Assembly: GCA_021805985.1 (NCBI GenBank)
Contig: JAJZDN010000015.1
Span: forward strand, 1 to 64,000
Source of the DNA: Planctomycetota bacterium
GTDB taxonomy: Bacteria > Planctomycetota > Phycisphaerae > WQYP01
DNA: 64,000 nucleotides
Reading direction: 5' to 3'
Shown: piece after piece, positions 11,428 to 14,215 of the stretch
Layout of the letters: every line of letters begins with the position of its first letter
Numbering within the stretch: position 1 is the first letter of the stretch
The notes under the pieces: generated by a model
Databases searched by the model: none
Seen by the model: the letters and a program-made list of their open reading frames with translations, nothing else
Told to the model about the DNA's origin: nothing
Made by a program: the position numbers and the translations under genes

Positions 11428-11433
11428 GTGTAC

Positions 11434-13200
11434 ATGGTTGCAGGTTACACAGTTTTGGCCCGGCGGTACCGCTCGCAGAACTTCGACCAACTCATTGGTC
11501 AGGAAGCAATCGCCACGACGTTAAAAAACGCCGTTTCGACCGGGCGTTTAGCCCACGCGTTTCTCTTTACCGGTACACGCGGAGTGGGCAAAACGTCTTC
11601 TGCCCGCATATTGGCAAAAGCGATCAACTGCCCAAATTCTGTCAACGGTCAGCCGTGCGGTGAATGCCCAACTTGCAAAGCCATTGCGGCCGGAGAAGAC
11701 ATTGATGTTATTGAAATCGATGGAGCCAGCAATAACGGTGTTGAACAGATTCGGGATCTAAGGCAAAGTGCCGGCATTACGCCCAGCCACAGTAACTTCA
11801 AAATTTACATTATTGACGAAGTTCACATGCTTTCGATGGCAGCGTTCAACGCGTTACTCAAAACGCTGGAAGAACCACCGCCGCACGTAAAGTTTATTTT
11901 TGCCACCACCGATGTGCATAAACTTCCAGCCACCATTTTAAGCCGCTGCCAGCGCTATGATTTTAAAAATATTCCCGCCGCCCGCATCACCGAGCATCTG
12001 CTGGATATCTGCCGGCAGGAAAATACCGAGGCAGAAAAATCAGCCCTGCATCGTATCGCGATTCTGGCCTCCGGGTCCATGCGTGATGCACTCTCCCTGT
12101 TGGATCGGGTGTTGTCCCTGGGCGCGGGACGGATCACAGAAAAGCTGCTGGATGAACTGCTGGGCAAGCCATCATTAGCCCACATGACGGACCTCACGGC
12201 GGCTATGGCGGCCGGGGACGCGGCGGCCGTGCTCAAGCTTTCTGACTATATGCTTTTGGAAGGCATGTCCGCCGAACAGGTGCTGGGTGAATTAACCGAT
12301 CTGTTACGCAATTTAATGGTCTTGCGCGTGTGCGGAGAACAAACCGATATTTTGGATATTCCCGGTGAATGGCGCGGCGCTTTGGTAAAGCTCGCCCCCG
12401 CATTTGATGCTTCGCTGCTGGTGCATCACATTGCATTATGCGATCAGACACTACGCTCTTTGCGTGGCTCAACCATGCAGCGGCCTTTATTTGACGCCTT
12501 AATGGTTCGACTGGCTATGGCGGGGCAATTCAGCAGTATCCGGCAGATACTTGAATCTGGGCAGTTGCCGCCTCCGGACGCGCAAAAAAAAAATGATTCA
12601 CCAAGCGTTGCAGCCCAGGGCGATTCCCCGCATGTGACAATTCCCGCCCGACCGCAAAGCCGGCAACTTTCCAGTCCGCCCGCGTCGGAATTACCGCCGG
12701 ACTCGCCTGTGCCCTTGCGCTCGCCTGCACTGACCGCCGCCGTGACGCCCAGTGCCGAAGACGGCAACTCGATGTGGGAATCCGTGGAAGCGTATCTGCT
12801 GGAAAATCAAGGGGCATCCCTGGTTAATTTGCTTAATGGCCAAGCGCGTATTATTTCAGCGGATGTCAGCAAGGGCACAATCCAATTGGAAGTGCCCAGT
12901 CACACGCATACAATGGTCAGTAGTGAGCGGTACCTGCGGATGATTGAGGCGGCTTTTGCCGCCAGAATGGGCAAAGCTTGTCGCTTGGAAATTAGCGTTG
13001 CCGCTCGCCCGGTCGTCGCTGCTGCACCCCTGGCAAACGCCCCAGTTCGCCCGGCACCTGTGTCCAGCCCGCGCATTTCGCCGGAGTTAATGAAACGCGC
13101 TCAGGAAATGCCGGCGGTCAAGCAGTTAATGGAAAAAATGGGGGCGAAACTTGTGAATGTGGAACCGCTGGAAGTCAGCCCGGAATCTTCGGATCATTGA
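11434..13200 (+). CDS. dnaX: DNA polymerase III subunits gamma/tau
   Basis: Clamp-loader ATPase of the replicative polymerase. The 588-aa tau product shows Walker A GTRGVGKT (47-54), a Cys4 zinc site (C66, C75, C78, C81), Walker B with DEVHML near 127, and the sensor region ATILSRCQRYDF. Domain III is followed by a Pro/Ser-rich linker and a C-terminal tau region. The start ATG at 11434 sits six bases after an extended -10 promoter; an in-frame GTG two codons earlier is unlikely. Inside the linker a run of ten A residues (12584-12593) could yield a shorter gamma form by slippage. It is followed by ybaB and recR, the common dnaX-ybaB-recR order. Confidence 0.97.
   Translation: MVAGYTVLARRYRSQNFDQLIGQEAIATTLKNAVSTGRLAHAFLFTGTRGVGKTSSARILAKAINCPNSVNGQPCGECPTCKAIAAGEDIDVIEIDGASNNGVEQIRDLRQSAGITPSHSNFKIYIIDEVHMLSMAAFNALLKTLEEPPPHVKFIFATTDVHKLPATILSRCQRYDFKNIPAARITEHLLDICRQENTEAEKSALHRIAILASGSMRDALSLLDRVLSLGAGRITEKLLDELLGKPSLAHMTDLTAAMAAGDAAAVLKLSDYMLLEGMSAEQVLGELTDLLRNLMVLRVCGEQTDILDIPGEWRGALVKLAPAFDASLLVHHIALCDQTLRSLRGSTMQRPLFDALMVRLAMAGQFSSIRQILESGQLPPPDAQKKNDSPSVAAQGDSPHVTIPARPQSRQLSSPPASELPPDSPVPLRSPALTAAVTPSAEDGNSMWESVEAYLLENQGASLVNLLNGQARIISADVSKGTIQLEVPSHTHTMVSSERYLRMIEAAFAARMGKACRLEISVAARPVVAAAPLANAPVRPAPVSSPRISPELMKRAQEMPAVKQLMEKMGAKLVNVEPLEVSPESSDH
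12584..12593 (+). other. A10 slippery run in dnaX, candidate gamma-forming slippage site
   Basis: Ten consecutive A residues cover codons 384-387 (CAA AAA AAA AAT). With one extra A the next codon is TGA, ending the protein at 387 aa. With one A fewer a TGA follows 14 codons later, ending at 400 aa. Both lie just after clamp-loader domain III, where E. coli (ribosomal -1 frameshift) and Thermus thermophilus (A9 transcriptional slippage) generate gamma. Confidence 0.7.
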
Positions 13201-13238: not shown

Positions 13239-13589
13239 ATGTTTGATTCGCTAAAATCTCTGGGCCAACTCGGCCCCTTAATGGCCAAGGCCCGAGAAAT
13301 GCAAACTAAAATGGCTGAAGTGCAGCAGAAACTCGGCGATATTAAAGCCGAAGGCTCTGCCGCGGGCGGCATTATTACCGTCACTGCCAATGGCCGGATG
13401 GAAATTATAGAATTACACTTTTCGCCTGAGGCCTTACGCCTTGAACCGCCCGTACTGGCAGATTTAACCCGCTCGGCAATTAATGATGCGCTGGTAAATG
13501 TTCGCAATATGGTGCAGCAGGAAATGCAGGGTGTCGCCGGCGATATGGACCTATCGGGAATTCAGAAAATGATGGGAATGCCGTCATGA
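13239..13589 (+). CDS. ybaB: YbaB/EbfC nucleoid-associated protein
   Basis: A 116-aa DNA-binding nucleoid-associated protein of the YbaB/EbfC family. It has the expected N-terminal amphipathic helix (LMAKAREMQTKMAEVQQKL), the central block EGSAAGGIITVTANGRMEI and the C-terminal DLTRSAINDALVNVRNMVQQ helix. GAGGA precedes the ATG. The stop overlaps the recR start (ATGA), and it lies 38 bp after dnaX, the usual dnaX-ybaB-recR arrangement. Confidence 0.95.
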   Translation: MFDSLKSLGQLGPLMAKAREMQTKMAEVQQKLGDIKAEGSAAGGIITVTANGRMEIIELHFSPEALRLEPPVLADLTRSAINDALVNVRNMVQQEMQGVAGDMDLSGIQKMMGMPS

Positions 13590-14215
13590 ATGATCATTCC
13601 ATGGCTTACAGCGCCAGTGTCCGGCGACTCATGGATATGTTGGGGCAGTTGCCAGGTGTGGGCAGTCGATCAGCGGAGCGGATGGTTTTTCACATCCTCA
13701 AAGCCAGTTCTGAAGACGCACTTGCGTTAGCGGATGCAATCCGTGCCGTTAAGCAACAGGTCCGTCATTGCAGTATCTGTTATCACTTAACGGAATCGGA
13801 CCCGTGTGAAATTTGTCGCAATCCCAGCCGCGATACCTCGGTGATCTGTGTCGTCGAGCAACCCAAGGATTTGTTTCAAATTGAAGCCACGGGCACCTAT
13901 AAGGGGGTCTACCACGTTTTGCTGGGACATCTGGCCCCTTTAGACGGTATTACTCCGGAAAATCTCACCATTGATGCTCTGGTCGCCCGCTTAGAGCAAC
14001 GTGATGCGACGGGAAATCCTCTGATTCGGGAAGTTATTATCGCAACAAATCCCACCATGGATGGGGACGGTACGGCGCTTTATTTACAAAGTCGCGTGGA
14101 AAATTCCGGTGTGATGATCACACGGCTGGCGCGCGGCCTGCCAGCGGGGGCGCAAATTGAACACGCCAATAAGGCTATTTTGTCCGACGCCCTTTCCGGA
14201 CGCATCAAAATGTAA
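13586..14215 (+). CDS. recR: recombination mediator RecR
   Basis: RecR helps RecFO load RecA at single-stranded gaps. The 209-aa protein has the N-terminal helix-hairpin-helix (LPGVGSRSAERMVFHIL), the Cys4 zinc finger (CSICYHLTESDPCEIC), the Toprim domain (ICVVEQPKDLFQIE, then ATNPTMDGDGTALYL) and the C-terminal LARGLPAGAQIEHAN block. Length is near the typical 200 aa. The ATG overlaps the ybaB stop; a second ATG five codons on is possible. Confidence 0.97.
   Translation: MNDHSMAYSASVRRLMDMLGQLPGVGSRSAERMVFHILKASSEDALALADAIRAVKQQVRHCSICYHLTESDPCEICRNPSRDTSVICVVEQPKDLFQIEATGTYKGVYHVLLGHLAPLDGITPENLTIDALVARLEQRDATGNPLIREVIIATNPTMDGDGTALYLQSRVENSGVMITRLARGLPAGAQIEHANKAILSDALSGRIKM

Follow-up and report, generated by a model that had tools for sequence, protein, structure and literature searches.

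A class-conserved A9/A10 run in dnaX of Phycisphaerae as a probable RNA-polymerase slippage site for the gamma subunit

In Escherichia coli, the gamma subunit of the clamp loader is produced from dnaX by -1 ribosomal frameshifting, which requires an A_AAA_AAG heptamer, an SD-like site upstream of it, and a hairpin. Other routes to the same products have been described in the literature. In Thermus thermophilus, gamma is made via slippage on an A9 run with stops in both other frames (Larsen 2000, as reported in PMC1088944 and PMC5009743). The RNA-DNA hybrid of bacterial RNA polymerase is 9 to 10 bp long, and a single nucleotide can reverse the roles of tau and gamma (PMC5009743). PMC3711429 describes 17 two-ORF (reversed) dnaX genes predicted by GeneTack, nine of them with 10 A's, for which slippage was proposed. 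We found no report of dnaX recoding in planctomycetes in the open-licence literature, a scope covering PMC3711429 apart from the species list in its supplement. The original prediction for the locus described here, made from its DNA alone, knew of no description for the lineage; that part stands, but the idea itself is not new, given the nine other bacterial dnaX genes with 10 A's in PMC3711429.

We analyzed a 64-kb stretch of DNA (64,000 nucleotides, hereafter the window) from a bacterium of the class Phycisphaerae. Its dnaX gene encodes 590 aa from a GTG at 11428, or 588 aa from an ATG at 11434 (ORF list), and matches the NCBIfam DNA polymerase III gamma/tau models with E values down to 1e-139. 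By reading, two ORFs directly 3' of it (13239-14215) resemble ybaB/ebfC and recR, which we take to be the usual dnaX neighbors. The relevant features are as follows.

11428..13200, + strand: dnaX, full-length (tau) frame (ORF list; NCBIfam models)
12139..12528, + strand: clamp-loader domain III, PF12169, residues 238-367 (Pfam)
12584..12593, + strand: A10, putative slippery run, codons 386-389, CAA AAA AAA AAT (sequence; conserved as A10 or A9 in 120/147 class members)
12594..12596, + strand: TGA reached after gain of one A, predicted gamma of 389 aa, or 387 from the ATG (computed)
12597..13197, + strand: tau-specific part, variable linker plus C-terminal domain, which needs the frame to be kept at the run (tau C-terminal profile)
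12635..12637, + strand: TGA reached after loss of one A or gain of two, predicted product of ~402 aa, or 400 from the ATG (computed)

The A10 starts ~19 codons after the end of PF12169 (residue 367) and reads, on the + strand, ...GCG CAA AAA AAA AAT GAT.... The original prediction had placed it just past domain III, and its position is exact by sequence and Pfam; the codon numbers given then, 384-387, are those obtained from the ATG. We recomputed both shifted products and agree with the earlier values: 11 A's lead to an immediate TGA (387 aa from the ATG, a predicted protein of ~42 kDa with QKKK at its end), and 9 A's lead to a TGA 14 codons on (400 aa), with a predicted 14-residue tail of MIHQALQPRAIPRM. 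Because domain III ends at residue 367, both products would be gamma-like, with all three clamp-loader domains. The window thus contains two elements of a Thermus-type site, namely, a homopolymer of at least 9 A's after domain III and nearby stops in both non-zero frames, one at once and one after 14 codons. Two further traits of that type concern its products: mRNAs that vary in A number, and gamma and tau proteins in a ratio near 1:1. It also contains the in-frame A_AAA_AAA heptamer of an E. coli-type site, which is trivial for any A10.

By itself, a single A10 run is unremarkable, as 0.5 is expected in 64 kb, and A8 in the window alone (7 matches versus 5.7 expected) is not significantly enriched. 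Counted by pattern search, the whole genome (4.68 Mb) has 2 A10 runs versus ~37 expected under a first-order model from window dinucleotides, which indicates that long runs are avoided in this genome and that the dnaX run is tolerated. The other A10 of the genome (G000:C121:179-188, locus L249) lies on the opposite strand, near a contig start. Four relatives (G032, G033, G035, and G037) have no A10 anywhere in the genome other than the one in dnaX. Over the class, 376 kb of fetched sequence had, besides the runs at the dnaX site, zero A9 or longer and one T9 or longer; dnaX genes average 61% GC. Once genome and relatives are compared, the dnaX A10 is, by these counts, far beyond chance.

We then read dnaX in 147 genomes from 24 families of the window's class. 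A DNA pattern proved too strict for this purpose (19/160 genomes matched), and the genes were located instead by protein search and direct reading. The run was A10 in 92 genomes, A9 in 28, A8 in 2, and A7 in 6, and 19 had none. A9 or A10 was thus present in 120/147 genomes and in 21/24 families, the family count being the safer one since related genomes are not independent, and the length never exceeded 10. The median distance from the position of residue 362 to the run was 26 codons. Across the class, the run encodes 20 different peptides and occurs in all three reading phases, with at least 25 phase changes on the DnaX tree (upstream domains, quick search, one support measure) while the run persists. 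As phase and peptide vary while the run stays, it is the DNA rather than the peptide that is conserved. The original prediction had named loss of the run from relatives with a conserved linker as evidence against it; we found the opposite, a conserved run in a variable linker.

The full-length tau frame is frame 0 in 99 of the 120 A9/A10 genomes. In these genes the first stop past the run comes at a median of 3.5 codons (+1-nt frame) or 3 codons (-1-nt frame), compared with 24.5 and 20.5 when measured from the downstream linker of the same genes as a control. Both shifted frames stopped earlier than this null in 20/20 families tested, which supports the earlier proposal that slippage in either direction would yield gamma. 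In the other 21 A9/A10 genomes, frame 0 ends 1 to 11 codons past the run (gamma-first genes), and a profile of the tau C terminus, derived from 96 relatives, located the tau tail in the +1-nt frame in 18 and in the -1-nt frame in 3 (G013, G016, and G042). The same profile fell in frame 0 in 100/103 tau-in-frame genes. The match was weak in G033 (E, 1e-4), and in G120 the tail is divided between two frames, perhaps through an assembly error. A gene whose template leaves tau out of frame makes sense only if slippage supplies tau, and these 21 relatives lend the gamma-by-slippage proposal independent support. The window gene, with tau in frame 0, is not of the GeneTack two-ORF (reversed) type, to which its 21 gamma-first relatives correspond. 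At least 14 switches between tau-first and gamma-first are required on the DnaX tree, and a single A separates G065 (A10, tau-first) from its close relative G152 (A9, gamma-first). The run, its stops, its conservation, and these frame swaps are direct observations.

Outside the class, A9 or longer was found at the dnaX site in only 5/60 genomes (42 families) from other classes of the phylum (Fisher p about 1e-23 versus the class, a value that is pseudo-replicated). Scattered A9/A10 cases occur among named records elsewhere, for example in Gemmata (A9), Schlesneria (A10), Aporhodopirellula (A10), one Ignavibacteria, and one Spirochaetales, and none of the Firmicutes among the named records examined had A9 or longer in dnaX, though many are lower in GC. 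One record titled Actinomycetota (JAACET010000184.1, L033) appears, by dnaX, to be the same contig as in class member G040 and is probably mislabelled. In family f30, from another class, four loci (L256, L257, L259, and L260) have a dnaX frame 0 that ends at 389 to 401 aa with a tau-like tail in another frame and no A-run. L298 (G205, family f56) also lacks an A-run: its dnaX frame 0 stops after 380 aa, and its tau-like tail is in the other shifted frame (f1).

Within the class, 19/147 genomes lack a run of at least 7. Five of these run-less relatives carry G_GGA_AAA followed by a gamma stop (G030, G039, G056, G068 [f4], and G134 [f21]), with a hairpin mean z of -3.1 and SD-like sites in 4/5; the profile recovered the tau tail in G134 only. 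The corresponding loci are L225, L231, L236, L246 (f4), and L242 (f21), with the gamma stop in frame. The class thus appears to hold both recoding modes, transcriptional and ribosomal, at one site, the ribosomal mode being deduced from small numbers. About 14 of the 19 have no visible recoding signal, and in these gamma is either dispensable or made otherwise.

We propose, and consider likely, that RNA polymerase undergoes programmed slippage at the A10, as in Thermus dnaX. The polymerase, with its hybrid of about 9 to 10 bp, would realign on the run, and the number of A's would differ from one transcript to the next. Those with 10 A's (or 13) would give tau, and those in the other frames would meet the TGA at 12594 at once or the TGA at 12635 14 codons on, giving a gamma-length subunit without the tau tail. 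We infer that the run slips, that the slippage is transcriptional, and that the cell makes use of gamma. Recoding at the run is very probably functional and, with good though lesser probability, transcriptional.

The main alternative is that the A10 mRNA is uniform and that ribosomes make gamma by a -1 shift on A_AAA_AAA, in the manner of E. coli dnaX. Any A10 offers the heptamer in frame, and some class relatives, with G_GGA_AAA or A7 sites, appear ribosomal. However, a ribosome needs only A7, and the run is held at 9 to 10, the length of the polymerase hybrid; moreover, both shifted frames are closed, and early closure of the -1-nt frame is unnecessary for -1 ribosomal shifting. Both shift directions also occur among the gamma-first genes, an argument for the polymerase made in PMC3711429, and the three genes with the opposite direction stand against the ribosome. 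As a counterpoint, 18/21 gamma-first genes need the +1-nt direction, which is also the product of -1 ribosomal frameshifting; insertion-biased slippage would explain this excess as well. The stimulatory elements weigh against the ribosome: we found no downstream hairpin signal at the A9/A10 genes (mean z of -0.10 versus -0.06 in controls, n = 120; +1.4 in the window), no AGGA, GGAG, or GAGG in the 16 nt preceding the window run, and SD-like sites near the run in only 19/120 class genes (background, 8%), whereas the five G_GGA_AAA genes have the hairpin and four of them an SD-like site. An Rfam scan of the window dnaX and seven hairpin-bearing relatives detected no frameshift element. We thus regard ribosomal frameshifting as unlikely at the window run.

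Two readings without programmed recoding have far less in their favor. The run could be a chance homopolymer or mere coding for a lysine-rich, hydrophilic linker, in keeping with the K-rich peptides that the runs encode and with the variable, charged nature of DnaX linkers. This reading is already contradicted by the comparative data: the length is constant over three phases and 20 peptides, the run is missing from other classes with the same type of linker, and tau is held out of frame in the frame-swapped genes. With amino acids fixed and codons drawn from each gene's usage, only 8.9 of 99 runs as long are expected (9%). We consider this reading very improbable. Least probable of all is a toggling of tau and gamma at the DNA level, whether through phase variation by replication slippage or through a misassembled homopolymer. 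The one-A difference between G065 and G152 indicates that such changes do occur in evolution, but length is uniform within genus and family (24/25 genomes of family f1 have A10), and many gamma-first genes keep A10 and differ in their flanks instead. The genomes are mostly metagenome assemblies, and identical run lengths in independent assemblies argue against assembly error.

Transcriptional slippage at the A9/A10 run, as favored here, bears on the long-running question of how important gamma is outside a few model bacteria. Selection is directly readable in this class, where a hypermutable homopolymer, avoided elsewhere, is kept to within one base, and both products stay encoded whichever template frame is used. 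We lean toward the broader view that Phycisphaerae as a class rely on polymerase miscounting at 9 to 10 A's for both clamp-loader subunits, with many tau-first/gamma-first flips and with slippage exchanged in places for ribosomal frameshifting. Natural pairs such as G065/G152, one A apart, and the transcriptional/ribosomal switch at one site make mechanism and dose directly testable. Slippage as an idea was already known; what is new, on the comparative evidence, is that a run of such exact length is conserved class-wide while its frame has inverted repeatedly.

The locus thus resembles Thermus dnaX in its late A-run, with tau in one frame, close stops in both others, and gamma presumably made from miscounted transcripts. 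It differs in having A10 (or A9) instead of A9, in belonging to a different phylum, and in its class-wide distribution with frame-swapped relatives, and slippage is here predicted from sequence alone. With the genes covered in PMC3711429 it shares an A10 in dnaX and the mechanism proposed, and 21 relatives likewise have gamma in the template frame and tau elsewhere. Unlike those genes, the window gene reads tau in frame; among its relatives, either arrangement and either direction of shift can be found in a single class and even in a single family. The gene and its products are the same as in E. coli dnaX, but the window run has neither a hairpin nor an SD-like site. It is the G_GGA_AAA genes that reproduce the E. 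coli layout of heptamer, SD-like site, and hairpin, with a different heptamer and with the products reversed.
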